A stretch of 64,000 nucleotides of DNA from Flavobacterium sp. Root901. GTDB lineage: Bacteria > Bacteroidota > Bacteroidia > Flavobacteriales > Flavobacteriaceae. Where the stretch lies: contig NZ_LMJB01000009.1 in assembly GCF_001429765.1 (NCBI RefSeq), positions 248,001-312,000 on the forward strand, in the 5' to 3' direction. Positions within the stretch are counted from its first letter, which is position 1; every line of letters starts with the position of its first letter. Under the pieces are notes generated by a model. It was given only the letters and a program-made list of their open reading frames with translations, did not search any database and had not been told where the DNA came from. Shown here piece after piece: positions 4,307 to 56,496 of the stretch. A program made the translations under genes and the position numbers.

Positions 4307-4628
4307 GTAAACTTATTTTAAAGTGAGCAAAGATACTGCTTATTCATCAATTAGAGAAAATGAAAAAGATATAAAATTATGCAATACTGCAAGAATTTCT
4401 TAAAAAACGATTTGTTTTGAATGTTAAAATTATCAAAATATCAAAACACTAATTACCTATAAAACAGAACTTCCGAAAAAAATAAAAAGTTTTTTTTAGT
4501 TTTCCTGTAACATAACGACAACAAAATAGTCTTAATAGAGACTTTAAATTTATTTGAAGCCAAAAAAAAATCAAAACAAACAAAAACAACCTCATCATCA
4601 ATCAAATCAAAATAATCATTATCGCACT
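4307..4628. other. Divergent intergenic region between argS and a TonB-dependent receptor
   Basis: This 322-base AT-rich stretch holds the argS -7 box and presumably the receptor's promoter, which I could not identify. A TTG at 4554 opens the downstream frame, but the 25 residues it would add are Lys/Gln/Asn/His-rich and precede a clean signal peptide, so they are treated as untranslated leader. No RNA gene or repeat was recognised. Confidence 0.5.
4328..4335 (-). promoter_or_regulatory. Candidate -7 box of argS
   Basis: TATCTTTG on the minus strand, an exact match to the Bacteroidota TAnnTTTG element, 22 bases upstream of the argS ATG. No convincing -33 TTTG is seen at the usual spacing. 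Confidence 0.5.
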
Positions 4629-7046
4629 ATGAAATTAAAATTCTTTCTGTTCGCATTACTGGGGGTATTTGCAACAGCTCAAGCTCAGAATTCCGGAACG
4701 GTCACGGGTAAAATTACCGAAAAATCAAACAATGCGCCTATTTCTTACGCGACAGTTTCTCTTAAAGAAAATGGAAAAGTAGTCTCTGGCGTTAACACAG
4801 ATGACAATGGAGATTTTGCCTTTAAAAATGTGGCGTTAAAGAGCTATACTATCGAAATTCAGTATATCGGATTTAGAAAATACATTGGTTCTGTGGTTTT
4901 AGGTGAAAACAAAAAAACTGCAGCTGTAAATGTTGCCCTTGAAGAAGAGGCTACACAATTAAAAGGTGTAAACATTGTTGCTGAACGCTCAACAATCGAA
5001 CAAAAGATCGATAGAAAAGTGGTAACAGTAGGAAAAGATTTAACTACTGCCGGAGCTTCAGCATCTGATATTATGAGCAACATTCCATCCGTAAATGTAG
5101 ATCAGGACGGAAAACTTTCACTTCGTGGAAATGATAATGTACGTGTGTTAATCGACGGACGTCCATCGAACATCGATCCTGCACAGTTATTAAAACAAAT
5201 TCCTTCAACTTCTATTAAAAAAATTGAGTTGATTACAAATCCAAGTGCAAAATACAATCCTGAGGGAATGTCTGGGATTATCAACATTATTTTGCATAAA
5301 AATGCGAATACTGGTTTTAACGGAAGCTATAGCGGTGGAATCACTTTTGGAGAAACAGCAAAATACAATCAATCTTTAGATTTGAATTATAAAACCGGAA
5401 AAGTGAATTTCTTTGGAAATGCAGGTAACAACTTTGGTACCTATTTTAACGATGGTCACATTAAAAGATTAGATCAGGATGTTAATCAAAAATTAGATAT
5501 TTCTAATGATAATGACAACTATTTGTACAAAGTAGGTATGGATTATTTAATTAATGATCACAATACTTTATCTATTTATACCAATCAAAATAAATCGACC
5601 GGAACTGGATTAGTAAATACTGATATTGATTACAATAACGGTGATCCTAACATTAAAAATATCTACCAAAAAGCCAGATACCAGGGTCCAAACGAAACAG
5701 GAACTTATAATTTAGCGTACAAACATATCTTTAAAAAAGAAGGTCATACTTTAGATTTTGAAGGAAACTACAGTAATACGAGAGAAACTCAAAATGCGAA
5801 TTTTGATACTCAGACAACAAGTCCTGCAAACGCGGTTAACAGCATCATTTACAACGATTACATCAATGACAAAAGAAAATTAGGTACATTAAATATTGAT
5901 TATGTTAATCCTTTAAACGACAAAACAACTCTTGAAGCCGGAGCTGAAGCCAGAATTACAAGAACAGATAACGATTATATCACAAGTAACCCTGCAGTTG
6001 CTGCTGCTGATCAAATTTCTAATTATAAATACGATACTGATATCTACTCTGCTTATGTTACTTTCGGTCAGAAATATAAAAAATTCAGTTATCAGTTAGG
6101 TGCTCGTTTTGAAAGTTATAAAGTTGCAGCTGATTTAAATCACGGCTTTAAAAAATTTGATGACGATTATATTACGTTATATCCATCTGCTTATTTAACT
6201 TATAATCTAAATGAGAAAAATGTTTTACAATTAAGCTACAGCCGTCGCGTTGACAGGCCAAGTTTAGAGCAGACAAAACCTATTCGTGAGTTTTCTACTC
6301 CGCTGGTTACATCATATGGAAATCAGGAACTAAGACCTCAGTTTACCAATTCTGTTGAAGTAAATTATACTAAAACACTTGAAAAAGGAAGTATTACTGC
6401 GGGAGTTTTTGTTAGAAGCATTAATGATCAGATAAGCAGAACTTTAAGCCCAGACCCTAATGATGCTTCCGGATATAAACAAATTTTAAGTTTTGCCAAT
6501 TACGATCGCAATAGTGCTTATGGTTTTGACATTTCTGCCAACTATAAGCTTACAAAATGGTGGGACATCCAGCCTTCAATTGATTTCTCAAGTATAAAGC
6601 AGCAAGGTGTTGTTTTTCAATTTGATCCTGTAACAAATACAAGTTCGCCATTAGAGCGCAGTGTAACAACTTCTGCTTTTAATGCCCGTATGAACTCAAA
6701 CTTTAAACCTACAAAACGTTTAAGCTTTTTATTATTCGGTTTTTACAGAGGAGGAGTTGAAGAAATCCAGCAGCACAGAAACGAAATGTACAAAATGGAT
6801 ATTGGTTCACGCTATACATTGTTAGACAACAAAATGAACATCAGCTTGCGTTTTAACGACGTTTTCAATACAATGAAATTTTCTTTTGATGGTGTTTATC
6901 CTTATCCTCAAACTGGTCAGTTTACATGGGAAAGCCAAACGGTTTACTTAGGTTTAACATACAATTTTGGCGGGGCGAAAATCAAAAAATTAGAGCGTAA
7001 ACAAAGAGAAGATAATACTAATCAAGGTGGTGGCGGAATGTTTTAA
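4629..7046 (+). CDS. TonB-dependent receptor with carboxypeptidase-regulatory domain and outer-membrane beta-barrel
   Basis: An outer-membrane protein of 805 residues. The ATG at 4629 is chosen because it begins the signal peptide MKLKFFLFALLGVFATAQAQ. A carboxypeptidase-D-regulatory-like domain follows (about residues 24-105, GTVTGKITEKSNNAPISYAT), then a plug domain (about 115-220, ASDIMSNIPSVNVDQDGKLS, LRGNDNVRVLIDGRPSNIDP, NPEGMSGIINIIL), and a large barrel of the OMP_b-brl_3 type ending in a Gly-rich tail and Phe. Unlike SusC proteins it lacks the RagA plug signature and has no SusD partner. Ligand unknown. It is monocistronic, with a shared terminator toward cutC. Confidence 0.93.
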   Translation: MKLKFFLFALLGVFATAQAQNSGTVTGKITEKSNNAPISYATVSLKENGKVVSGVNTDDNGDFAFKNVALKSYTIEIQYIGFRKYIGSVVLGENKKTAAVNVALEEEATQLKGVNIVAERSTIEQKIDRKVVTVGKDLTTAGASASDIMSNIPSVNVDQDGKLSLRGNDNVRVLIDGRPSNIDPAQLLKQIPSTSIKKIELITNPSAKYNPEGMSGIINIILHKNANTGFNGSYSGGITFGETAKYNQSLDLNYKTGKVNFFGNAGNNFGTYFNDGHIKRLDQDVNQKLDISNDNDNYLYKVGMDYLINDHNTLSIYTNQNKSTGTGLVNTDIDYNNGDPNIKNIYQKARYQGPNETGTYNLAYKHIFKKEGHTLDFEGNYSNTRETQNANFDTQTTSPANAVNSIIYNDYINDKRKLGTLNIDYVNPLNDKTTLEAGAEARITRTDNDYITSNPAVAAADQISNYKYDTDIYSAYVTFGQKYKKFSYQLGARFESYKVAADLNHGFKKFDDDYITLYPSAYLTYNLNEKNVLQLSYSRRVDRPSLEQTKPIREFSTPLVTSYGNQELRPQFTNSVEVNYTKTLEKGSITAGVFVRSINDQISRTLSPDPNDASGYKQILSFANYDRNSAYGFDISANYKLTKWWDIQPSIDFSSIKQQGVVFQFDPVTNTSSPLERSVTTSAFNARMNSNFKPTKRLSFLLFGFYRGGVEEIQQHRNEMYKMDIGSRYTLLDNKMNISLRFNDVFNTMKFSFDGVYPYPQTGQFTWESQTVYLGLTYNFGGAKIKKLERKQREDNTNQGGGGMF

Positions 7047-40877: not shown

Positions 40878-42269
40878 TTATTGTCCGCGGTAAAACAGCA
40901 CAGTCGTAATGGTTTTAAACGTAATACTTAAATCCAAAAAAACACTTCTGTGTTTGATGTAATAAAGATCGTATTGCAATTTTACTAAACTTTCGTCTAT
41001 TGATTCTCCATACGAATAGTTCACCTGAGCCCAGCCGGTAAGTCCGGGTTTTATAACATGACGCGTTTCATAAAAAGGCATTATTCTGGCAATTTCTTCA
41101 ACAAAAAATGGCCTTTCGGGTCTTGGCCCTATTACAGCCATATCTCCTTTTAAAACATTATAGAATTGAGGCAGTTCGTCTATTCTTGATTTACGCATAA
41201 ATTTCCCAAACGGAGTTATTCTTTTATCATTTTGAACTGCAAATACGGCACCGTTTGTTTCAGAAGCTTTAATCATGGTTCTGAATTTGTATATTTTAAA
41301 AATATTCCCGTTTTTCCCTACTCTGTCTTGTGTATAAAACAAACTCCCTTTGTTTCCAAGAAGATTACCAATGGAAATAAACGGAATAAAAATTACACAA
41401 ATCAATAAACCGGTAAATGAGAACAGCAATTCTAAAAAGCGAATTAAAAACAGATACAATTTATTATTATTACTTCGGCTGAAAGGAAAAAAACGATAAA
41501 AATCGCGGGCTATATAATGTACCGGAATACGTTGTGTTTTACTTTCGTAAACCTGAGTATATTCTCTAATAATATTACCCGATTCTAATAAGTGAAGTAA
41601 TTGCTGATATAAGTCTGCTGTAATTCCATCTGTTTTTTGAGAAGCAATTACAATTTCTGAAACACTGTTTTGGATTACAAAATCTTCCAGTTCGCTTTTA
41701 GCAATTTCTTTAACATAATAAACCGCTTTTGATGCAGAAACGGAATCAGAGTTAACGAATCCGATGATTTTATAATGCGGATCTACACTTTCGAGACCCA
41801 GCACTAAGTCTTCCACCTGATCCTGATCGCATATCAAAACCACATTTTGTGAAAATCGTTGAGATGCTAAAAAAACGGCATAAAAGAAACGCCATAAAAG
41901 AACTGTAAAAAGTAAAGTGAGATAAAAAATCAATATTACCAATCGCTGCTTTGGAAGTCCTGGTGATAAAACCGGTGTAAGAAGGTATGCTAAAACCGTT
42001 GTAGACACTGTTAGTACAACACTTCTGAGCGTTTGAAACTGGTTACTTGCAATCTGGAGATTATACATTTCGAAAATTGTTCCAAAAATGTATAAATACC
42101 CAACAAGAATTATTGGTCTATAAATAGTCGCTATTTCAAAAGCGAAATAGTGGTCATTAAAAAGGACATTTAAGAAATATAATGCAGACAAAACAAAAAC
42201 TGCATCAAAAGCAAAAAGTAAAACTTTCCGTTCTGAAATTTCAAAATGCATTTTATTACTTGAACGCAT
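40878..42269 (-). CDS. Undecaprenyl-phosphate glycosyl-1-phosphate transferase (WcaJ-type priming enzyme)
   Basis: Adds the first sugar-1-phosphate to undecaprenyl phosphate, starting repeat-unit assembly at the inner membrane. It has 463 residues: four N-terminal transmembrane segments (about 12-130), a Rossmann-like soluble region (about 145-245), a fifth hydrophobic helix (about 280-300), and the catalytic domain with KIYKFRTM, KSRIDELPQFYNVLKGDMAV, IGPRPERPFF and KPGLTGWAQVNY. Sugar (glucose or galactose more than other hexoses) not readable. It is the last gene of the locus. A -7 box TACATTTG (42308-42301) lies upstream, so it may also be transcribed on its own. Confidence 0.95.
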   Translation of the reverse strand: MRSSNKMHFEISERKVLLFAFDAVFVLSALYFLNVLFNDHYFAFEIATIYRPIILVGYLYIFGTIFEMYNLQIASNQFQTLRSVVLTVSTTVLAYLLTPVLSPGLPKQRLVILIFYLTLLFTVLLWRFFYAVFLASQRFSQNVVLICDQDQVEDLVLGLESVDPHYKIIGFVNSDSVSASKAVYYVKEIAKSELEDFVIQNSVSEIVIASQKTDGITADLYQQLLHLLESGNIIREYTQVYESKTQRIPVHYIARDFYRFFPFSRSNNNKLYLFLIRFLELLFSFTGLLICVIFIPFISIGNLLGNKGSLFYTQDRVGKNGNIFKIYKFRTMIKASETNGAVFAVQNDKRITPFGKFMRKSRIDELPQFYNVLKGDMAVIGPRPERPFFVEEIARIMPFYETRHVIKPGLTGWAQVNYSYGESIDESLVKLQYDLYYIKHRSVFLDLSITFKTITTVLFYRGQ

Positions 42270-42323: not shown

Positions 42324-43670
42324 CTAATCCACTGGATTATTTGTTTTTCCAGGAAATTTAACCTGCACTGAAAGAAGTGTCAGTGCATATACAAAAGCAG
42401 GGGCAGCAATTCGCATCGCAGCATGGTTTATAGTAAGCAGCCAAAAAATAAAAAAGGAAAAGAAATATAAGTGCTGTCTATTGTTAATGTAAGTCACCAA
42501 TGGAACGACAATTAAAATTAAAAATCCAAAAATACCAAACAAACCATGTTCACTTAACATACGGGATATTTCATTATGAGCAGCAACTGACTGCCCTAAT
42601 GCTTCTCTTCGAATATCTTTTCCCATTCCTGCACCAATTCCTAAAATTGGGTTATCAAGAAATAATTTTAAATCTGCATCAATAATAGCTTCCCTTCCTC
42701 CTAAGCGATCACTTTTATCTCTTCCTTTTGCGTCTTTATTTGCATATCTTTTTTCAATAAGTCCTCTGGTCTGAAGTGAGGTATAGCTCCAAATTCCAAC
42801 CCCAAGAAAACCCACGAGCAATAAAATTAAACCAACCTTGCTTTTTCCTTTTCTATTAGATACATAATACAATAAAAACAATAAAAAAATAATCATTGCT
42901 ACTCCTGATATAACACCTCCTCTTGAAAAAGTTGCTATTCCTCTGTAGCTCACAAATATTAATAAAGCTCCATTTAAAAACATTTCACTTTTTAATTTTG
43001 AAGATAAGACCAATTGTGAAAAGAAAATAAACATTCCGAGCCCTAAAATTGTTGAAACCTGATTGGGTCCAAATCCCCCGGAGGTTTCGAAATTAGACTG
43101 TGTTCCTGTTACAACGTCTTTTACACTCGGATTGTATAAAAATAAATAGACTACAGTTGTAATTATCGGCAAGCCCATTATCGTTATAACTTTTTGTAAA
43201 TCAGGAAACAATATTCGTCTTTTTAAGGTATAAATAGATGCAATTGCTAAACAGACAGGTCCTGACAAGTTAAACACTAAAGCTTTTCTAATATCTGTAT
43301 TTAAATTTTCACTTGCATTTGTAACTAAAACACCTGGAATTAACAACAACAAAAAGAATAAATAGATTGATGCATTTACTGAAAAGTTGCTGTAAATCAT
43401 TCCTGTCAGCATAAAAAATATGACCAGTACCTTGACATATTCGTTATTAAAATTTCCTCCAGTCATTCTTAAGAAAACCTCAACACCCACTAAATATGCA
43501 GTGACGAAAAGAACCTCATTGTTTTTATTTTTATTCTTTACAATTAATAAAAATCCTAAAACCGGTATAATAAGTCCGTAAATTTTTGATAAAAAAGGCA
43601 CCGCAAAAATCGCTAAAGCAATTACAGCATGAATGAAGACAAGGTAATTATATGATAATGTTTTTTTCAT
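42324..43670 (-). CDS. O-antigen ligase / polymerase family protein
   Basis: A 448-residue inner-membrane protein with about eleven transmembrane segments. The large periplasmic loop near residues 300-380 contains RLGGREAIIDADLKLFLDNP, ILGIGAGMGKDIR and AAHNEISRMLSEHGLFG, the pattern of the O-antigen ligase family (Wzy_C). It either polymerises repeat units (Wzy) or ligates the polymer to lipid A core (WaaL); the sequence does not distinguish. Located between the priming enzyme and a GT4 gene. Confidence 0.93.
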   Translation of the reverse strand: MKKTLSYNYLVFIHAVIALAIFAVPFLSKIYGLIIPVLGFLLIVKNKNKNNEVLFVTAYLVGVEVFLRMTGGNFNNEYVKVLVIFFMLTGMIYSNFSVNASIYLFFLLLLIPGVLVTNASENLNTDIRKALVFNLSGPVCLAIASIYTLKRRILFPDLQKVITIMGLPIITTVVYLFLYNPSVKDVVTGTQSNFETSGGFGPNQVSTILGLGMFIFFSQLVLSSKLKSEMFLNGALLIFVSYRGIATFSRGGVISGVAMIIFLLFLLYYVSNRKGKSKVGLILLLVGFLGVGIWSYTSLQTRGLIEKRYANKDAKGRDKSDRLGGREAIIDADLKLFLDNPILGIGAGMGKDIRREALGQSVAAHNEISRMLSEHGLFGIFGFLILIVVPLVTYINNRQHLYFFSFFIFWLLTINHAAMRIAAPAFVYALTLLSVQVKFPGKTNNPVD

Positions 43671-47032: not shown

Positions 47033-48178
47033 TCAAAAAATTACATTTTTATAAAAATCAATATTTTGACGAAGAATATTTTCAAGTCCGTATTTTGTAA
47101 TTACGTACTTTCTGGCTTTTTTTCCCATTTCTTTTGCTTGTTCTTTGTTGGATAAAAACCAAATAATTTTTTCAGCAATATCTACTGGATTATATGGATC
47201 ACATAATAAACCTGTTTTATAGTTTTCAATTGTTTCAGGCCCCGGCCCCAGTTTTGTAAAAACAACTGCTTTTTCCATCGCCATTGCTTCAGGTGCTACC
47301 AACCCTTGAGTTTCCATATGAGAGGGAAATACACATAATGAAGCTTCAGAATAAACCTGGGGAATATCAGAATAAGGCACAGCTCCGTGAAAATTAATAT
47401 CCTGAGATGCATTTCCCAGTTTTATCAATTCTTTATCTTTTAACATCTTCATATAAGAAGTACCATTGGGAAAAAACCAATCCCTTCCATAGACTTCTAA
47501 AGTAACGTTTGGAAATTCTTTTTTAACTAACGGAAAAGCCTGAATTAATTGACGAATCCCTTTTTTTTCACAAACCGTTCCGGCAAAAACAATTTTATTA
47601 TCAGAATCGTTTGTAATTATTGGTTTAAAAAAATCTGTATCAATAGGATTACTTATATAAGCTATTGGTTTATTGTGATAACTTAGATATTTTTCAGTAT
47701 GCTGTTTTACATATTCAGAAACTGCAATAAAAGCATCAGCTTTTTTAAAAGATCTTTTTTCCTGAAATCCTTTCCATTTATTGATTTTCCTGTTTTCGCT
47801 TTCAGCAAAAAAATGGTGACCTCCATGTAAACGGATAATGTACTTGATGTTTTTTATTTTAGATAAGAAGGCGAGACCAAGCTCAGAAGATTCAATAATC
47901 TGTATTGGACTATTTTTATGAATCTCTCTGATTTTTTTATCAACTGTCTTCGAATTAAAATACCAAGAAAGTCCTTTTACTTTGCTTTTTTTTAATCTGT
48001 AAACCTTTATTCCTTCGACAATTTCAGATTCATTAGTTGGAGAATAATTAATTCCGATGACTGATATTTGAAAACCTTTTTTAACCAGTGAAACTGCCAA
48101 TGTCTTAACAAAGCTGCCAATTCCTCCATGTGGAAAACCTTCTTTTGGAAATTCATTGGTTATGAAACAAATGTGCAT
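47033..48178 (-). CDS. Glycosyltransferase family 4 protein
   Basis: A 381-residue GT-B enzyme. MHICFITNEFPKEGFPHGGI, then GSFVKTLAVSLVKKGFQI, is the typical donor of the glycine-rich loop; KIVFAGTVCEKKGIRQLIQA and the EX7E region PSHMETQGLVAPEAMAMEKA follow. It abuts the acetyltransferase gene directly (stop at 48179 neighbours the start at 48178). Confidence 0.93.
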   Translation of the reverse strand: MHICFITNEFPKEGFPHGGIGSFVKTLAVSLVKKGFQISVIGINYSPTNESEIVEGIKVYRLKKSKVKGLSWYFNSKTVDKKIREIHKNSPIQIIESSELGLAFLSKIKNIKYIIRLHGGHHFFAESENRKINKWKGFQEKRSFKKADAFIAVSEYVKQHTEKYLSYHNKPIAYISNPIDTDFFKPIITNDSDNKIVFAGTVCEKKGIRQLIQAFPLVKKEFPNVTLEVYGRDWFFPNGTSYMKMLKDKELIKLGNASQDINFHGAVPYSDIPQVYSEASLCVFPSHMETQGLVAPEAMAMEKAVVFTKLGPGPETIENYKTGLLCDPYNPVDIAEKIIWFLSNKEQAKEMGKKARKYVITKYGLENILRQNIDFYKNVIF

Positions 48179-48829
48179 TTATATATGTTTTTTAATAAAA
48201 CTATCTATTGACAAATAGAAATCATTTATGTTTTCTTTGATTTTTTCATCAGACCAATCCCACCAGCTAATTTTATTCAAAGCATCTATAGTTTCCTGAT
48301 TATGTTTGAATTTGATAACTTTTGCCGGAATCCCTCCTGCAATTGCATAATCTGGAATATCATCAGATACAACTGCACCAGCCAAAATAGAAACTCCGTT
48401 TCCAATTTTAACATTGGGCAAAATTGTAGCATTCATTCCAATCCAAACATCATTTCCTACTATTATATCAGATTTATTTGGTTTCAATTTTTTATTTAAA
48501 TCGGCAGCTTTATAAGTCATACTATTAATTATTATTTCATCATTTTTTTCTAAAATTTCATGAAATAAAGGAAATGATGTAATTTCACTCTCAGTATGAA
48601 AGCCTGAATCACAAATGAAGTTTACATCATTTGCAATGGAACAATATTTACCTATTTTGAGACTTGAATCATTATACCATTTCCATACAAAAGCACCGTT
48701 ATCATATGTTTTATCTCCAATAACTGCCCATTTTGCATCTTTTAAATAAACACTATTTCTGCCCTTTAAATAATTGTAGAAATTAATTCCTAAAATACTC
48801 CAAAGCAATTTTCTTATATAAAGAATCAT
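48179..48829 (-). CDS. CatB-related O-acetyltransferase
   Basis: A left-handed beta-helix acetyltransferase of 216 residues. Hexapeptide repeats cover about residues 50-175 (LKIGKYCSIANDV, IIVGNDVWIGMNATILPNVK, IGNGVSILAGAVVSDDIPDY), and the xenobiotic-acetyltransferase-type ending AIAGGIPAKVIKFKHNQETI with WWDWSDEKI is clear. It likely O-acetylates a sugar of the repeat unit with acetyl-CoA in the cytoplasm. The start overlaps the upstream gene by 4 bases. Confidence 0.93.
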   Translation of the reverse strand: MILYIRKLLWSILGINFYNYLKGRNSVYLKDAKWAVIGDKTYDNGAFVWKWYNDSSLKIGKYCSIANDVNFICDSGFHTESEITSFPLFHEILEKNDEIIINSMTYKAADLNKKLKPNKSDIIVGNDVWIGMNATILPNVKIGNGVSILAGAVVSDDIPDYAIAGGIPAKVIKFKHNQETIDALNKISWWDWSDEKIKENINDFYLSIDSFIKKHI

Positions 48830-50220
48830 ACGTTTCTATTTTTTATAAGATTAGAAATATTAATTGAAGCGCTATTATTCTTTTCTTCAACTACAATATT
48901 ATACCACTCCTTTAAATTGCTTATAGAATTCCACTCTTTTTTGTAAATAATTTTATCTATAATTTCCTCTTTATTATTGAGCCAAATTACGGCATCATCA
49001 TTTGGCATACTTTTAAAATGCTGAAATTGATAGATCGTTTTTACTGACCAGCGTTTATCATTTTGATTTTGCTGATCATAGTTAATGAAAACACATGGCT
49101 TATTAAACTTTCCAAAATCAAAAGCCATTGTTGAACCAACATTTACAACTATATCAGAATAGAATGCAGTACTCACTAATAACTTTACATCTTTAAAAGT
49201 TGGATAAACGGTGTTCCATTCTTTTGATTTACTAAAATACCATACGGGCGGAGCTTCTTTAATTAAATCTTTATATTGTTTTACAACTTTATCAAATCTT
49301 CCCGAAAAATCGACCGGACATCTTCGCAGTAAAATTTGATATTCGTTCTGTAGATTCGCTTTGATAATTTCTTCGGCTATATCTTTCAAATAATCCGGAT
49401 CATCCGGAGAAGTTTTGATATCGTCACCAGAAAAACATATAATTTTTTTATTCAAATCCAGATCATATTCCCTATAAAAAGATTTCTTATCAATTAAATT
49501 TTTCGGATCATCATAAAATTCAAATTGTGGAGTTCCAGTAACATGAATATCATCTGATAAAATTTCGGGATAATATTGCTTCAATTCATTTTTCATATAA
49601 CCGGACCATACCAAATAGTTATCTGCACGGAGTGCCAATCGGGCTTTTGGTAAATTATCCCAGGAGTAAATCACAGTGCTTGTTTTAATTCCCAAATCAC
49701 TTGCTGCGGCAAAAACCGGAGCTGCATTCAAAGCTCTTTGGTGTGAACAAAAAACATGATCAATTTGCTGCTGTTTCAGAATAGTTTTTACTTCATCGTA
49801 AAACGAATTTTGACGAATTGCTTTCTGATACATTCTTTCAAGTTTTAAAATACTTGAATAGTCTTTAAAAAAGGCCGATAACAATTCTATCGTTTTATAG
49901 AATATCTTTTTTGAAAATCCTTTCTGTTTCCAGTTCCAGTTAGTTAATAAAGTTGGATTATTAACTTTAGAATTATTGTAATGCAATCTTGAAAGACAAA
50001 TTAATTCTCTCAAAAACTTTTCCTTAACAGACTCTTTATAAGATGGAATTGAGATTTCTTCATTAATTGCAGTATTTTCTTTGATTGCTTCTATAGTTTC
50101 GCGGTCGAAATTATGAAACAGAATTATGTCTTTATTTAAATTATTAAAAACATTAGAATAAAGATAATTTCTTATTCCAACACCATCAGGAAAAAGCAGT
50201 ACTATTTTATTTTTATCCAT
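48826..50220 (-). CDS. Unrecognised polysaccharide-locus protein, possible GT-B transferase
   Basis: A 464-residue soluble protein without signal peptide or membrane segments. I do not recognise a named family. It begins like a GT-B N-domain (KIVLLFPDGVGIRNYLYSNV), has a helical insertion (about 90-150), and then SHQRALNAAPVFAAASDLGI, TSTVIYSWDNLPKARLALRA, DNYLVWSGYMKNELKQYYPE and DDIHVTGTPQFEFYDDP. The last blocks resemble the hinge of CDP-glycerol-phosphotransferase-like and surface-carbohydrate proteins. A STAFYSDIVVNVGSTMAFDF block would be the donor region. It probably adds a sugar or polyol phosphate, an inference from fold and place. Confidence 0.7.
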   Translation of the reverse strand: MDKNKIVLLFPDGVGIRNYLYSNVFNNLNKDIILFHNFDRETIEAIKENTAINEEISIPSYKESVKEKFLRELICLSRLHYNNSKVNNPTLLTNWNWKQKGFSKKIFYKTIELLSAFFKDYSSILKLERMYQKAIRQNSFYDEVKTILKQQQIDHVFCSHQRALNAAPVFAAASDLGIKTSTVIYSWDNLPKARLALRADNYLVWSGYMKNELKQYYPEILSDDIHVTGTPQFEFYDDPKNLIDKKSFYREYDLDLNKKIICFSGDDIKTSPDDPDYLKDIAEEIIKANLQNEYQILLRRCPVDFSGRFDKVVKQYKDLIKEAPPVWYFSKSKEWNTVYPTFKDVKLLVSTAFYSDIVVNVGSTMAFDFGKFNKPCVFINYDQQNQNDKRWSVKTIYQFQHFKSMPNDDAVIWLNNKEEIIDKIIYKKEWNSISNLKEWYNIVVEEKNNSASINISNLIKNRNV

Positions 50221-50227
50221 TGAAAAA

Positions 50228-51109
50228 CTATTCTAAAAAAAAATCTTTTAAAATTTTTGCCGTAAATATTTTTGCTCCTTTATCATTCATGTGTCCGCAA
50301 GAAGAAAAATATTTATTTTCAATTACAACATTTTCATAATTATGAATTTCCGGATATGCTTTTTTTACTTTATCAAAATAATTCAATCCTTTTGTGTTTT
50401 CACACATTGGTGTCATTAATGCGATAAAATTAATGTTATTGGCTTTACAAAGATTTTTAATTTCTTCGTAATATTTATTGTGCTTTAATGGATTTAAATT
50501 CACAATATTATTTTTCATATTAGCATTTTTGTGCTTTCCTAATGGATAATATCCTAAGTTATCTAATGTATTCGTTTTTTCCTTTTTTAGAACCTTAACT
50601 ACTTCTCTAAATCCTATTTTTCCATCATATTTAATATATCTGTAAAATGGGATATAATAAAGCTCATTAAAATCTGTTTCATTTAAAAAATGATTTTTAA
50701 TAACCTCTGAGTTATGGATATATGGCAGAAATTTAGCAGAAATTCCCTCCGCCTGATGTTCATTTGAAAGATTTAAATCGGCTTCTAGAATAATATTTTT
50801 GATTTGGTATTTTCGTTCGATCATTAATTTCAACATCAAAGAAGCTTCAAATAAATGTCCGCCGCTCATTCCGTAATTGAATGCTTTTAATCCTTTGTCT
50901 TCAAACATTTTTGCCACAAAATGATTATTTGCTCTTGAAGATCCTAAAAAAACAACATCGTATTTCTGGGCTTGTGAATTAAAAACTTTTTCGATTTTCC
51001 CTCTGTCATTGGAATGCATGAAAATATAGGTATACAACCCATCTAATAGAAATGCTATTAAGATTGTTATGACACTAATTTTAGCGATATAAATTAAAAA
51101 CTTCTTCAT
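50228..51109 (-). CDS. SGNH-hydrolase-like membrane protein, partner of the MBOAT acyltransferase
   Basis: A 293-residue protein with one N-terminal transmembrane helix (about 7-30) and a periplasmic SGNH-like domain: block I VVFLGSSRANNHF, block II-like FNYGMSGGHLFEA, and a C-terminal SSCGHMNDKGAKIFTAKI that would carry the catalytic His. This topology is that of DltD, AlgJ/AlgX and PatB partners of MBOAT proteins. It overlaps the MBOAT gene by one base, so they are translated together. It likely transfers the acyl group to the glycan in the periplasm. Confidence 0.8.
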   Translation of the reverse strand: MKKFLIYIAKISVITILIAFLLDGLYTYIFMHSNDRGKIEKVFNSQAQKYDVVFLGSSRANNHFVAKMFEDKGLKAFNYGMSGGHLFEASLMLKLMIERKYQIKNIILEADLNLSNEHQAEGISAKFLPYIHNSEVIKNHFLNETDFNELYYIPFYRYIKYDGKIGFREVVKVLKKEKTNTLDNLGYYPLGKHKNANMKNNIVNLNPLKHNKYYEEIKNLCKANNINFIALMTPMCENTKGLNYFDKVKKAYPEIHNYENVVIENKYFSSCGHMNDKGAKIFTAKILKDFFLE

Positions 51110-52542
51110 TAAAACTGAAAATATATAAATTCTTTATAATCTGAAAAAGTTCCAAATGCCATAATCGCTAAAATTGCCAAGGCTACTTTTAATGTACTCC
51201 ATTTTCCAGAAAGTGGTTCTACTTTACTGCGGTTATTCCACTCGATTAACACAAATAACGCAATCATTAGTAAAAGTTCATAGCTGTAACGTTCATTATC
51301 TAAATACTGAAAACTAAAATCTCTGCTGGTAATAATTCTTTTTAAATACAAAACTGCGTCTGTAATTGTTTTGGCTCTAAAAAATACCCACGCAATGCAC
51401 GTTAACGCAAATGTGTAAAGTATACTGAAGAATACTTTTACAGAATCAAAATCAAATTTCAACTGAATGGTGTCCATGTTATTTCGATTACTGTTAGAAA
51501 GAAGTAATGGCAGGAAATAAACTGCATTTATGAATCCCCAGGCTAAGTATGTCCAATTTGCACCGTGCCAAAAGCCACTAACAACAAAAATGATGAATGT
51601 ATTTCTAATTTTCATCCATAATCCGCCCTTACTTCCTCCTAACGGAATATATAGATAATCACGAAACCAGGAAGAAAGCGAAATATGCCAGCGTCGCCAA
51701 AACTCGGCTATATCTCTTGAAAAATATGGATAATTGAAGTTTCGTAATAAATCTAAACCAAATAATTTTGATACACCCAGTGCAATATCTGAATATCCGG
51801 AAAAATCACCATAAATCTGAAAAGCAAAGTATATAGCTCCCAAAATTAATGAGAAGGAATTCATGGAAGTGTAATTATCAAAAACAGCGTTGGCGTAAGG
51901 GGCACAAGTATCGGCAATAATTACCTTTTTTACTAAACCCCAAATAATTTGATAAACTCCTTGTTTTGCATTTTCTAAATCAAATTCACGTTTAACTTTT
52001 ATCTCTGGAAGTAAATGTGTCGCTCTTTCGATTGGTCCTGCTACTAAGAGCGGAAAATAACTCACAAACAGAGAATAATCTACAAAGTTATATTCGGCTT
52101 TTATTCTTTTAAAATAAATATCTATTACATAAGAAAGACCGTGGAAGGTGTAAAATGAAATTCCAACCGGTAAAATTACATTTAGTAAAAGTGGACTTGC
52201 TTTTATACCGGCTGAATTTAATAATTCTGAAAATGAAGAGGCAAAGAAATTATAATATTTAAAGACTCCTAAAAATCCCAGATTGACCAAAATACTCAAC
52301 CAAAACCAAAATTTTCGGCTTTTCTCAGATTTACCTTTTTCAATTTGAATTCCCGTGTAATAATCCAGAAAAGTTGAGAAAACCAATAAAAACAGAAATC
52401 TCCAATCCCAACAAGAATAAAAATAATAACTGGCAATAATCAGTAAAGCATTTTGGGTGCTTTTGTTTTTATTAAAAACAAACCAATACAGCAAAAAAAC
52501 GATTGGTAAAAAGATAGCAAATGCTATGGAGTTAAAAAACAT
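51109..52542 (-). CDS. MBOAT-family O-acyltransferase
   Basis: A 477-residue inner-membrane protein with about eleven transmembrane helices. Diagnostic segments are VILPVGISFYTFHGLSYVID, FWRRWHISLSSWFRDYLYIP and the catalytic His in VSGFWHGANWTYLAWGFINA. It resembles AlgI, DltB and PatA, which pass an acyl group across the inner membrane to an SGNH partner. The next gene encodes such a partner. The acyl group is probably acetyl. Confidence 0.95.
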   Translation of the reverse strand: MFFNSIAFAIFLPIVFLLYWFVFNKNKSTQNALLIIASYYFYSCWDWRFLFLLVFSTFLDYYTGIQIEKGKSEKSRKFWFWLSILVNLGFLGVFKYYNFFASSFSELLNSAGIKASPLLLNVILPVGISFYTFHGLSYVIDIYFKRIKAEYNFVDYSLFVSYFPLLVAGPIERATHLLPEIKVKREFDLENAKQGVYQIIWGLVKKVIIADTCAPYANAVFDNYTSMNSFSLILGAIYFAFQIYGDFSGYSDIALGVSKLFGLDLLRNFNYPYFSRDIAEFWRRWHISLSSWFRDYLYIPLGGSKGGLWMKIRNTFIIFVVSGFWHGANWTYLAWGFINAVYFLPLLLSNSNRNNMDTIQLKFDFDSVKVFFSILYTFALTCIAWVFFRAKTITDAVLYLKRIITSRDFSFQYLDNERYSYELLLMIALFVLIEWNNRSKVEPLSGKWSTLKVALAILAIMAFGTFSDYKEFIYFQF

Positions 52543-52571: not shown

Positions 52572-53705
52572 TTATATATCTCTAAATTGTTTTTGGTGAT
52601 TCAGCTGCCAAATATCGTTTTTCTTTAATGATTGTAAAAACAATTCGTTACTATTTCCTTCTCCAAAATCATTATCTGAAACCTGAACTTTATGAGAATC
52701 TATTTTGGAAAGAGCTTCAAGAATATCTTTTTCAGAATAATCGACATTTAGAATATCGGCATGAATGGCTCTATTTTGCTGGCGCGTTCCAATATTTATA
52801 ATTGGTATCCCATAATAAGGCGCCTCTCGAATTCCGGCACTGCTGTTGCCAATTATAAATTGACTCTTTTTTAATAAAGTCAGAAAATATTCAAATCGCA
52901 ATGATGGAAAAATTCTGAATCTTGTAATTCCTTCTAATCTTTTAAATTCGTCTATTATGAATTGGCTTCCCAAATCATTGTTTGGAAAAATAACAATATA
53001 GTTTCGATTATCTTTTAGTAAACAGTCAACAAAAGTAACAACGTATTCTTTCATTGAATTAAATTCTGTCGTAACCGGATGGAACATTACTAATGCATAA
53101 TCTTCAAACGGAATTTCATAATATTTTTTTGCTGTTTCCAGAGAAGGCAGATTATTAGAAAACATAATGTCAATATCTGGGGAACCAATGGTAAAGATAG
53201 ACTCTTTTACTTCTCCCATTTGCAATAATCTTTTTTCGGCCTGCTTATTAGACACAAAATGCACGTGACTTAGTTTACTAACACTATGACGAATTAATTC
53301 GTCTACAGTTCCAGAAACTTCACCACCTTCGATATGAGCAACCAAAATATTATTTAAAGATCCTACAATAGCGCCTGCAAGTGTTTCTACTCTGTCTCCG
53401 TGCACGACGATCATATCAGGTTTTATGTTTTTGCAATAATTGGACAACCCTTCAATAGTCTTTGCCAACGTTAAATCCATAGTAGTTTCGTGGGTATGAT
53501 TTTCGAAAGTAAAAACGTTTTTAAAATTACAGCGTTCTATTTCGATTAATGTATAACCATAAATCTCCTGCAGATGCATTCCGGTAACAAAAACAAAAGC
53601 TTCAAAATCCTCTTGTTCTTCTAGAGTCTCAATGAGTGATTTAATTTTCCCGAAGTCTGCACGGGTACCGGTAAGAAATAATATTTTTTTTGAAGAATTA
53701 TTCAA
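52572..53705 (-). CDS. neuC: UDP-GlcNAc 2-epimerase, hydrolysing (NeuC/LegG family)
   Basis: A GT-B-fold epimerase of 377 residues, giving ManNAc (or a diacetamido analogue) from a UDP-sugar. Family segments are [70 protein letters not shown] and [20 protein letters not shown]. It overlaps neuB by 8 bases. NeuC and LegG share these motifs, so the product may be sialic or legionaminic acid. Other legionaminic-acid genes are not seen in the window. Confidence 0.93.
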
Positions 53706-54738
53706 AATCAGAAAAATCTAATTGTTCGTCATTTTCAATATCTCTCGATGCGGTTTTTCCAATTAAATCATTAAAATGTTCCGCTAAAATTTTACCTGTT
53801 CCGGGACGTTTAACCCAGATATTTTCTTTAGATAAAACTTCTCCTTTTTTAATTGGCTTTATAGCGCAAACCGTAGCAAAAGCAAAATCGATTGTAACTT
53901 GTTCCTCTAGAGCAGGTTTTTTAGTTCCACCTCGCATTAAGGCAATTTCAGCACTTGAAACAATTAATTCTGCACATGCTTTTTCATCCATACTGCAAAC
54001 AATATCCGGACCTGTTCGCTGCATATGATCTGTAAAATGTCTTTCCAGAATACTTGCACCAAGCGCTACTGCACCTAAGCAGGCATTATTGTTTAAAGTA
54101 TGGTCACTTAGTCCAAACACTTTATCCGGAAAAGCCTCATGAAGTTCGACCATTGCTCCAAAACGAACTAAATGAATTGGTGTTGGATATAAATTTGTAG
54201 TATGAAGTAAAGCAACCGGAATATTGTGTTTGTCAAAAATTGCAACCGCTTTTTGAATACTTTCTATTGTATTCATACCTGTGCTTAAAATCACTGGTTT
54301 TCCAAATGACGCAATATGTTCTAACAAAGGATAATTATTGCATTCTCCTGAACCAATTTTATAAGCCGGAATATCAAATTTCTTTAATCGCTCTGAAGCT
54401 GCTCTTGAAAAAGGTGTCGAAATAAAAATCATGCCTTTGCTTTCTACATAATTTTTCAATTCCAACTCTTGCTCTTCATTTAGTGAGCATCTTTCCATAA
54501 TTTCATAAATAGAAACATCTGCATTTCCCGGAATTACTTTTTTGGCTGCACCAGACATTTCATCTTCTACAATGTGAGTTTGGTGTTTTACTACTTCAAC
54601 TCCTGCTCTGTGTGCTGAATCAACCATTTCTTTTGCGACTTCTAAAGAGCCTTCGTGATTGATTCCTATTTCGGCAATAACTAATGGTGGAAAATCTGGT
54701 CCAATTTTACGGCCTGCAATTTCTATATATGGATTCAT
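53698..54738 (-). CDS. neuB: N-acetylneuraminate synthase family protein
   Basis: Condenses phosphoenolpyruvate with the ManNAc-type sugar to form a nine-carbon acid. It has 346 residues: TIM barrel (about 1-275) with [81 protein letters not shown] and [20 protein letters not shown]; and a C-terminal SAF/antifreeze-like domain (about 280-346; [20 protein letters not shown]). Whether the product is Neu5Ac, legionaminic or another acid cannot be read. Confidence 0.95.
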
Positions 54739-54758: not shown

Positions 54759-55418
54759 TTATTGTTTTTTATAAAGATATCTCGCATACTCTAAATCTTC
54801 AGGAGTATCGATATCAACTTGTGCAAAAATATGATTTACCTCGAATGGAAAAGCATTTTCTGAAATAATAATATCGTTTAGTATTAAAGAACTCTTTGTA
54901 ATATAAAGTAATCCGTTTTCAAAAAAAAGCGGTTCTAAATCCTGACTTCTCTGCCCAAAAGTATAATTAAAAGGCTGAAATTTATTATCCATTATTTTTC
55001 CAAATTTTTGATGATTTCTGGAAACCGTAAATAGGCTGTCTTTATTTTCTTTTTCGAATTTATTAAAAGCTTCTTGTAATAAGTTTTCAGGACGTAAAGG
55101 ATTTGTTGCCTGTAATAAAACAACATTTTCCACATCTGTATCAATTGATTCCAAAACATGTTTTAATGCCGAAACTGTTGGCTCTAAATCTCCTGAAAGG
55201 GATTTTGGTCTGTCAATAACTTTTGCTCCAAATTGCAGTGCTGTTTTTTTTATTTCAGCATCATCTGTTGAAACGTAGATATCATCTATAATTCCACTAT
55301 TTTCTTTTGCATATAATATAGAATGGGCAATTAAAGGTAATTCTCCTAAAAGCTGAATATTTTTTTCTGATATTCGTTTTGATCCTCCTCTTGCAGGAAT
55401 TATAGCTATTGTTTTCAT
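54759..55418 (-). CDS. neuA: CMP-nonulosonic acid synthetase (acylneuraminate cytidylyltransferase)
   Basis: Activates the nonulosonic acid with CTP. It has 219 residues from the ATG at 55418, where the nucleotide motif MKTIAIIPARGGSKRISEKN begins; an upstream in-frame start would add eleven residues and overlap the acyltransferase gene. Other segments: VYVSTDDAEIKKTALQFGAK, VVLLQATNPLRPENLLQEAF and QVDIDTPEDLEYARYLY. It is 20 bases upstream of neuB in transcription order, so neuA-neuB-neuC form a tight cassette. Confidence 0.95.
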   Translation of the reverse strand: MKTIAIIPARGGSKRISEKNIQLLGELPLIAHSILYAKENSGIIDDIYVSTDDAEIKKTALQFGAKVIDRPKSLSGDLEPTVSALKHVLESIDTDVENVVLLQATNPLRPENLLQEAFNKFEKENKDSLFTVSRNHQKFGKIMDNKFQPFNYTFGQRSQDLEPLFFENGLLYITKSSLILNDIIISENAFPFEVNHIFAQVDIDTPEDLEYARYLYKKQ

Positions 55419-55434
55419 CTCCTTAATTGTTTTA

Positions 55435-56496
55435 TTAAGCTGGATTTTCAATTATCTCAGCTATTTTCTTTTTTATTCTTATTTTATCTCTAATTGGTTT
55501 TTCAATGTAGACATAAGATAATGAAGAAATAATAATCAGGATAATAAGTCTTAGAAAAAAGACAAGTGTAGGCTCACTTAAATGCAGATATTTATTTACA
55601 CTATATGCACTTACTAAGGAATAAACTGGAAATTGTAGAATATAAATTCCAAAGCTAATTTCTCCCAAAAATATAAATATTCTTTTTTTAAATAATGTAG
55701 TTATTATTCCATTATTTAAGGAAATAAGGATTATTAATGGAATGAAAAGCACTGCCAGCATTCCATTATGAAATTTTAAATTTAGCGGAAATTTTAAAGC
55801 CAAAAAGATTAATCCGAGAATTAATAGAATTAAAAAATCATAGCTGCCATTCTTATGCTGCCATTTTTTGATTAAAAAATATCCAGATAAATTTCCAATC
55901 AAAAATTCATTGAGATGCAATATAGGATTGTACATCAATAAATCTCTTACTAACTCATTTCCGGCAAATAATAAAAAAAGAGTTTCAAATAAAATTTGAC
56001 TAAAAATCCAAAATACAACAATATATACTGCAGCTTTTTTATAACTATTATTTTTAAGAATATTAAAAACAATAGGGAAAGCTGCATAAAACAACATTTC
56101 TACAGATAAAGACCATCCTGGTGGATTAAAAGATAAAGCTTGTCCCGGAATCCAGCTTTGAATCATAAATATGTTTAAAAACATACCTAATAAATCAAGG
56201 CTTTTAGTTCGTATTTGTAAAAATAACACAAGAAGTATGGCAAAAAAATAGATGGGATAAATTCGTGCAAACCTATTTCTAAAATATTCTTTTGGTGAAA
56301 AATTTGATTTTTTCCCATAAGCAATTATCATAACAAATCCTGATAGTAAAAAGAAATAACTAACACAAACATCTGCGTTAAAAAATATTGGTTTTACAAA
56401 ATCATTATTAAAGAGAAAGCTTTTTTTTCCAAAATGAAAAATTACAATTGATACTGCGGCTAAAAACCGTGTAAATGTTAATTGATCTATTCTCAT
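55435..56496 (-). CDS. Acyltransferase family 3 membrane protein
   Basis: A 353-residue OafA/YrhL-type inner-membrane acyltransferase with about ten transmembrane helices. The catalytic His is in RFLAAVSIVIFHFGKKSF (near residue 21); RNRFARIYPIYFFAILLVLF, NPPGWSLSVEMLFYAAFPIV and GEISFGIYILQFPVY are family signatures. It likely adds an acetyl group to a sugar of the repeat unit. It directly precedes neuA. Confidence 0.94.
   Translation of the reverse strand: MRIDQLTFTRFLAAVSIVIFHFGKKSFLFNNDFVKPIFFNADVCVSYFFLLSGFVMIIAYGKKSNFSPKEYFRNRFARIYPIYFFAILLVLFLQIRTKSLDLLGMFLNIFMIQSWIPGQALSFNPPGWSLSVEMLFYAAFPIVFNILKNNSYKKAAVYIVVFWIFSQILFETLFLLFAGNELVRDLLMYNPILHLNEFLIGNLSGYFLIKKWQHKNGSYDFLILLILGLIFLALKFPLNLKFHNGMLAVLFIPLIILISLNNGIITTLFKKRIFIFLGEISFGIYILQFPVYSLVSAYSVNKYLHLSEPTLVFFLRLIILIIISSLSYVYIEKPIRDKIRIKKKIAEIIENPA

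Follow-up and report, generated by a model that had tools for sequence, protein, structure and literature searches.

A pair of genes in a 64,000-nucleotide stretch of Flavobacterium sp. Root901 (contig NZ_LMJB01000009.1, positions 248,001 to 312,000; the whole stretch is called the window here) encodes a putative carrier of acyl groups across the membrane, from the membrane-bound O-acyltransferase (MBOAT) family (477 amino acids, 51109..52542, minus strand), and a membrane-anchored SGNH-fold protein (293 amino acids, 50228..51109, minus strand). We consider it probable that the two form an O-acylation system for the surface polysaccharide of their locus, that this system serves, as an optional decoration module, a nonulosonic acid polysaccharide locus conserved in Flavobacteriaceae, and that its acceptor is not specific to one type of nonulosonic acid. 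This judgement applies to the three parts jointly.

Pairing of the two genes and linkage to nonulosonic acid genes

The two open reading frames share one base, in a TAATG junction, and directly follow neuC. An earlier note on this DNA had described this arrangement, and the coordinates, the PF03062 match of the MBOAT protein (1.7e-27; 97.1 bits, gathering cut-off 27) and the modelled SGNH fold agree with it. With the SGNH protein alone as query, homologues were found in 41 of the 299 family genomes sampled. All 45 SGNH homologues in the window and 40 stretches (those of G105 and G257 were excluded) adjoined an MBOAT gene on the same strand, so the pairing is not due to chance. The MBOAT gene was upstream in 41 of the 45, and the identical one-base overlap was found in 17.

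The MBOAT protein resembled DltB. It matched the DltB equivalog profile at 152.5 bits, missing the cut-off of 375, and its own profile recovered DltB structures among PDB sequences at E 3.6e-33. His286 and His326 were invariant in 14 aligned rows and aligned with the DltB motifs FWNRWH and GFWHG; we take them to be the catalytic residues. This likeness, the consistent pairing and the SGNH fold support the earlier proposal of an MBOAT-SGNH acyl-transfer pair.

The SGNH protein was further linked to NeuB, the nonulosonic acid synthase, and to GT8n, a protein of GT-B fold (464 amino acids, 48826..50220, minus strand in the window) and a candidate nonulosonic acid transferase. The best-matching genomes, with at least 110 bits to the window SGNH protein alone (16 of the 41 matched genomes, 14 genera by handle), all had NeuB, versus 158 of the 299 sampled (Fisher p 2.5e-5, uncorrected for kinship), and all had GT8n, versus 110 of the 299 (Fisher p 5.4e-8, likewise uncorrected). 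We also delimited a subfamily by a hidden Markov model (HMM) score of at least 290 bits; this HMM came from an alignment (A1) built after the neighbourhoods had been seen, and its counts are partly circular. With the subfamily HMM in place of the bit score, the count for NeuB and GT8n was 18/18. NeuB lay within the 20-kb locus in 14 of 17 subfamily loci, versus 3 of 23 loci of other homologues. In a sample of 395 genomes from the phylum, the subfamily was present in 19 of the 24 genomes of the window’s genus, and the two matches outside this genus were far weaker (85 and 79 bits). GT8n was at most 3.9 kb from the subfamily SGNH gene in 18 of the 19 same-genus genomes, and none was found in G616. 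The MBOAT proteins of the nearest named loci, from Flavobacterium, were 86–92% identical to that of the window.

Exceptions to this linkage weigh against our reading. The earlier note had set a pair scattered over genomes without the cassette against its own proposal, and such scatter was partly found. Three of the 17 family-sample subfamily loci (L037, L038 and L048) had no NeuB in the 20-kb stretch, L048 having NeuC and NeuA there; all three genomes carry NeuB elsewhere. The same was true of the named subfamily loci L085, L086, L088 and L123, and L080 and L081 come from genomes with no NeuB match. L038, L080, L086, L088 and L123 were not beside a cassette. A further named locus, L090, had no NeuB in its stretch, its genome being outside the NeuB search; L085 and L090 are both cut by contig ends. 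In L081 a neuA-type gene (4409-5083) was found near GT8n and the pair, yet NeuB was unmatched in this genome.

Fold and active-site residues of the SGNH protein

The SGNH protein had no accepted Pfam or NCBIfam match, and none of the DltD, PatB, AlgX and DHHW Pfam families was listed for it at E values up to 10, in a search where HMMER filters drop weak matches. Its AlphaFold model (43 sequences, mean pLDDT 95.8) has an N-terminal membrane helix (residues 2-31) and an SGNH domain. Foldseek ranked DltD first (E 3.2e-6, TM 0.47), and VIA-align a Phocaeicola sialate esterase (7pzh; Z 13.4, root-mean-square deviation 3.1, 167 aligned); PatB scored Z 11.7 and DltD Z 11.5 (deviation 5.7 over 242). 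Against PDB sequences its profile gave one weak match, to a PAF-acetylhydrolase (E 0.012), so that the kinship with DltD rests on fold. Judged by the modelled fold, the protein is a member of the SGNH hydrolase-like superfamily.

The SGNH blocks recognized in the window protein were Ser58 in a GSSR motif (block I), NYG at 78-80 (block II) and His273 (block V), in the canonical S-G-N-H order. Of 144 aligned SGNH-type sequences, all had Ser58 and 142 had His273; of the other two, L053|10 had Tyr and one row an X. At the position expected for the block V Asp, three residues ahead of the His, the window protein has Ser270. In the 44 subfamily rows this position held Ser (21), Asn (17), Thr (2), Asp (3) or X (1), meaning that Ser, Asn or Thr replaced the Asp in 40. 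L036 and L137 among these rows are the same stretch with the same proteins, and L036 was omitted from the tree and the locus counts. Across all aligned rows the Asp was present in 80 of 144, and other subfamilies miss it too. Of 52 tree rows (L080, part of whose row reads X, was left out), the Asp was absent in 32 of the 36 from nonulosonic acid loci and present in 8 of the 16 from other loci. This pattern follows one deep split and is thus no evidence of repeated change. The cassette-free homologues mostly keeping the Asp (8/10) are one supported clade, and there were five independent pairs on starred branches; a coupling of Asp loss to nonulosonic acid loci through independent events was dropped, as the power was too low.

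With the usual Asp absent and one homologue without the His (L053 10965-11837), catalysis by the SGNH protein cannot be presumed from these alignments, and both points count against our reading. The protein could instead be non-catalytic, binding the acceptor for an MBOAT protein that acylates alone, or be a deacylase. The replaced Asp, both in the subfamily and in the rows from nonulosonic acid loci, and the lost His of L053|10 would fit this, as would tandem SGNH genes behind one MBOAT gene, of which there are three in L084 (11434-14101) and two each in L082 and L083. We find it improbable all the same, since Ser58 and His273 are almost invariant, the Asp is missing in other subfamilies as well, and Ser-His dyads have been described in CE2 SGNH enzymes (excerpts of PMC9487903; all papers are cited here from excerpts).

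Among the fold neighbours, PatB also points to general peptidoglycan O-acetylation by a PatA/PatB-like pair that is here by chance, and the two-part layout is equal. The linkage to the nonulosonic acid locus argues against this, and so does a second MBOAT gene of the genome (L034 5217-9793), roughly 8 to 13 kb from the left end of the window. Two GDSL-type proteins share its operon, one of them with LysM; the second GDSL match was slightly below the cut-off (32.2 versus 32.9). By its gene content this operon is probably directed at wall acylation, which makes a wall role of the window pair unlikely, and a chance peptidoglycan pair is in our view very improbable. The earlier note had favoured a locus-bound over a general cell-wall role, and the separate operon and the company of the close subfamily with nonulosonic acid genes bear it out. 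Transfer of D-alanyl or another amino-acyl group, as by DltB/DltD, deserves hardly any credence. DltB and DltD are the best NCBIfam, PDB-sequence and Foldseek neighbours, but the DltB equivalog cut-off was missed, and a search of the genome gave 0 matches for DltC and none over the cut-off for DltA. From the latter result, the donor is likely to be acyl-CoA and the group to be acetyl.

Optional placement in a conserved locus with three cassette kinds

We compared 80 named loci and 80 stretches of other genomes; from the genomes with GT8n and without the subfamily, 40 of 92 were fetched. The labels GT8n, GT380, GT510, GT331, GT371 and GT358 are our own and were given by similarity to L112 and to window genes. 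Where GT8n was present, a recurring order was recognized: nonulosonic acid genes, GT8n, optional genes, GT380, GT510, GT331, GT371, GT358, Wzy and the initiating transferase. The cassettes were of three kinds: Neu-like (the window), Leg-like (L075 and L112) and Kdn-like, the last with a NeuB-type synthase of 291 amino acids and with a KdsC/Kdn-9-phosphatase-like domain fused to the synthetase. They were typed from NeuB scores, so that the product of each is a predicted one.

The pair was present in 30 of the 77 loci with GT8n. Its SGNH gene lay directly before GT380 in 21 of these, another module was between them in 3, and the pair preceded GT8n in 6, the window included. The position after neuC, which the earlier note had used as its pointer to the acceptor, is thus not the usual one, as the pair of most relatives is not beside neuC. 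In 28 of the 47 GT8n loci without the pair, GT380 came right after GT8n or one glycosyltransferase further on. Elsewhere the place of the pair was filled by an acyltransferase-3 (AT3) protein (L168), FkbM methyltransferases (L161, L173), a sulfotransferase (L181), a GT11 protein (L174) or several genes, and in L129 and L131 by another MBOAT-SGNH pair. The slot genes of L175 and L195 had no family match in a Pfam search that took in all slots but that of L171. From its changing gene content, the place between GT8n and GT380 looks like a decoration slot.

To see how far the genes follow the cassette kind, changes of cassette type were counted on quick trees and compared with 300 shuffles. For the 27 typed loci with both the pair and GT8n, GT8n had 5 changes (0/300 shuffles as low). 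MBOAT and SGNH had 11 changes each, where shuffling gave 12.7 to 12.8 on average and 54 of the 300 shuffles were as low for each. NeuA, the positive control, had 2 changes in 26 rows (0/300), and GT380 had 8 in 26 rows (1/300). GT8n and GT380 also tracked the cassette type in larger sets, which cannot include the pair, with 10 changes in 71 rows and 15 in 68, respectively (0/300 each). DNA linkage alone was considered as the reason for the tracking of GT8n and found insufficient: GT380, which is beyond the pair in most loci, tracks, and the pair does not. This argument rests on quick trees, 27 loci and one gene (GT380).

The MBOAT and SGNH trees without detectable type tracking suggest that the acyl acceptor is probably not tied to one nonulosonic acid type. 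Several results weaken this step. In the small set, GT371 (9 changes in 23 rows, 40/300), GT358 (11 in 19 rows, 300/300) and Wzy (6 in 14 rows, 170/300) failed to track as well, and in the larger set the distant GT358 tracked the type (18 changes in 52 rows, 2/300). With GT358 and GT380 tracking in the larger sets, the small set appears underpowered. The missing tracking of the pair, from quick trees of 27 related loci with little power, is a weak negative.

GT8n was present in 110 of the 299 family genomes, and 109 of these 110 have NeuB. It had no accepted Pfam family, the match to Glyphos_transf (18.1) missing the cut-off of 22.1. The nearest structures to its model (pLDDT 89.9) were NeuC/WecB-type epimerases (Z 23), followed by TarL and TagF (Z 18-20). 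With epimerases ranking nearest, the fold on its own is insufficient to call a transferase; co-occurrence with NeuB, tree and model together make GT8n a candidate for a nonulosonic acid transferase family not previously described. Tannerella GtfS has 445 amino acids (PMC6388019).

MBOAT-SGNH pairs outside the subfamily were also seen. Of the 33 Kdn-like loci, 12 had such a pair upstream of NeuA (L061, L068, L073, L078, L079, L137, L156, L158, L161, L164, L166 and L167); it was directly beside NeuA in 8, and in L078, L079 and L137 it occurred together with a subfamily pair. The block V Asp was present in the six that were aligned (L061, L068, L073, L078, L079 and L137). Further such pairs were in other places of four Neu-like loci and one Leg-like locus. 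One of these systems may be the type-specific one.

The earlier note had taken the neuC position to suggest O-acylation of the nonulosonic acid or its neighbour. The occurrence of the pair with Neu-, Leg- and Kdn-like cassettes and the lack of detectable tracking make the neighbour the better half of that statement; the nonulosonic acid itself fits less well, a shared hydroxyl being still possible. The hydroxyl would then be one that Neu, Leg and Kdn have in common, such as that at C4 or C8, and we regard this acceptor as possible if rather doubtful. It would agree with the tie of the subfamily to genomes with NeuB and GT8n, with the sialate esterases among the nearest solved folds, and with the 8-O-acetylation of legionaminic acid in lipopolysaccharide (LPS) by the AT3 protein Lag-1 (PMC9558356). 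Against it stand the trees, where GT8n and GT380 track the type and the pair does not detectably, and the non-subfamily pairs upstream of NeuA in Kdn-like loci, which look like better candidates for a type-bound role. In the Flexibacter maritimus O-polysaccharide, moreover, the 3-O-acetyl group is on the sugar next to the nonulosonic acid (PMC3210612). We thus hold that the acceptor is more likely common to all versions of the glycan, either on an adjoining sugar or at a position that every nonulosonic acid has, than peculiar to a single type of nonulosonic acid. Acinetobacter reportedly has 4-O-acetylated nonulosonic acids.

Window locus, proposed mechanism and known systems

In the window, the pair is part of a minus-strand run of 22 same-strand genes (40878-63990) with gaps of at most 58 bases. 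Directly upstream were neuC, a hydrolysing 2-epimerase (52572..53705; TIGR03568 at 413.1, equivalog cut-off 235.9 passed), neuB (53698..54738; TIGR03569 at 403.1, cut-off 399.65 passed), a neuA-type CMP-sugar synthetase (54759..55451; PF02348, nearest PseF at 154, missing 205.7) and an AT3 membrane protein with PF01757 as the sole family listed (55435..56496; 2.2e-25) and no SGNH domain match. Downstream, GT8n was followed by a CatB/Vat-like hexapeptide acetyltransferase (48179..48829; PF00132) and four GT4-type glycosyltransferases, beginning with GT380 (47033..48178; PF00534, labelled via its similarity to L112:12320-13465). An O-antigen ligase/polymerase family protein (Wzy_C; 42324..43670; PF04932, 7.4e-18) and the initiating sugar-phosphate transferase (40878..42269; PF02397, 1.9e-60) end the locus. 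The three acyltransferase types that the earlier note saw here, two of them membrane proteins, are thus real as genes, with the CatB and Vat models matching below their cut-offs.

To the right of the window (L155 4206-13298) we found an ABC transporter pair, a 4,6-dehydratase, an RmlD-type gene, an aminotransferase, a PglD-like gene and a second sugar transferase. With such a transporter pair nearby, export of the polymer may be ABC-dependent. We refrain from naming the sugar of the window Neu5Ac, since the genes for a 4,6-dehydratase, an aminotransferase and a PglD-like protein are some 5 to 12 kb beyond the window. The NeuC of the Leg-like L075 likewise passed the TIGR03568 cut-off (382 bits), leaving legionaminic acid as a possible product, as far as profile scores tell.

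In the mechanism that we propose, the MBOAT protein would draw on cytoplasmic acyl-CoA and pass its acyl group, most probably an acetyl, through the inner membrane, as expected from its family. The SGNH protein, anchored by the single N-terminal helix of its model, would have its domain in the periplasm, where Ser58, activated by His273, would accept the acyl group. From there it would go, while the glycan is exported or afterwards, to the hydroxyl of one of its sugars, probably in a part common to all glycan versions. Delivery by MBOAT and transfer by SGNH are assigned by analogy with DltB/DltD, PatA/PatB and AlgI/AlgJ/AlgX (PMC9487903, PMC9558356). We infer the identity of the acyl group, the direction of transfer, the acceptor and a surface polysaccharide as product; acylation of this polysaccharide is itself a prediction from the genes, which also counts against our reading. 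Acetyl groups are common in Bacteroidota protein O-glycans, the timing of their addition being unknown according to a review (PMC12871550), and a protein O-glycan rather than LPS is possible as the product.

More tentatively, and with somewhat less than even confidence, we suggest that the glycan is assembled from exchangeable blocks. A nonulosonic acid block, with Neu-, Leg- or Kdn-like genes and a matched GT8n, would be swapped as a unit, and a separate slot would hold or lack an acylation pair whose SGNH protein uses a Ser-His dyad and acts on a site common to all versions. The locus comparison yields a candidate nonulosonic acid transferase family and a possible route by which Flavobacteriaceae diversify their surface antigens.

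For alginate, peptidoglycan, secondary wall polysaccharide and teichoic acids, MBOAT proteins that work with SGNH partners have been described, and cellulose also has a described MBOAT (PMC9487903, PMC9558356). Among the matches listed from open-access PMC text (subscription literature being outside the search), no such pair was described for a nonulosonic acid polysaccharide; a Campylobacter coli paper mentions an MBOAT as well as a legionaminic acid gene and treats them separately in the excerpts (PMC12102941).

DltB/DltD, which D-alanylate teichoic acids, are likewise an MBOAT and a membrane-anchored SGNH protein, and are the closest solved relatives of the window proteins, judged by sequence for the MBOAT and by Foldseek for the SGNH protein. 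Unlike them, the window pair has no triad Asp and is in a Gram-negative polysaccharide locus, its MBOAT scores below the DltB cut-off, and its genome has neither a DltC match nor a DltA over the cut-off. PatA/PatB of peptidoglycan and PatA1/PatB1 of secondary cell-wall polysaccharide also combine an MBOAT with a separate SGNH protein (PMC9487903), but the window SGNH protein has no PatB or DHHW Pfam match, and the acceptor of Bacillus cereus PatA1/PatB1 is a Gram-positive wall polysaccharide. AlgI/AlgJ/AlgX of alginate share with our loci an MBOAT and one or more SGNH proteins in a polysaccharide operon, similar to the tandem copies in L082-L084; AlgJ and AlgX are circularly permuted (PMC9487903), in contrast to the canonical order of the window protein. 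Lag-1 of Legionella acylates an O-antigen containing a nonulosonic acid, but is an AT3-only protein and not an MBOAT with an SGNH partner (PMC9558356). The kind of system is therefore known. New, as far as we have seen, are an unclassified SGNH family without the triad Asp, its ties to nonulosonic acid loci and its use as an optional module; such a family offers a natural test of whether acyl transfer, unlike hydrolysis, needs the Asp or not.

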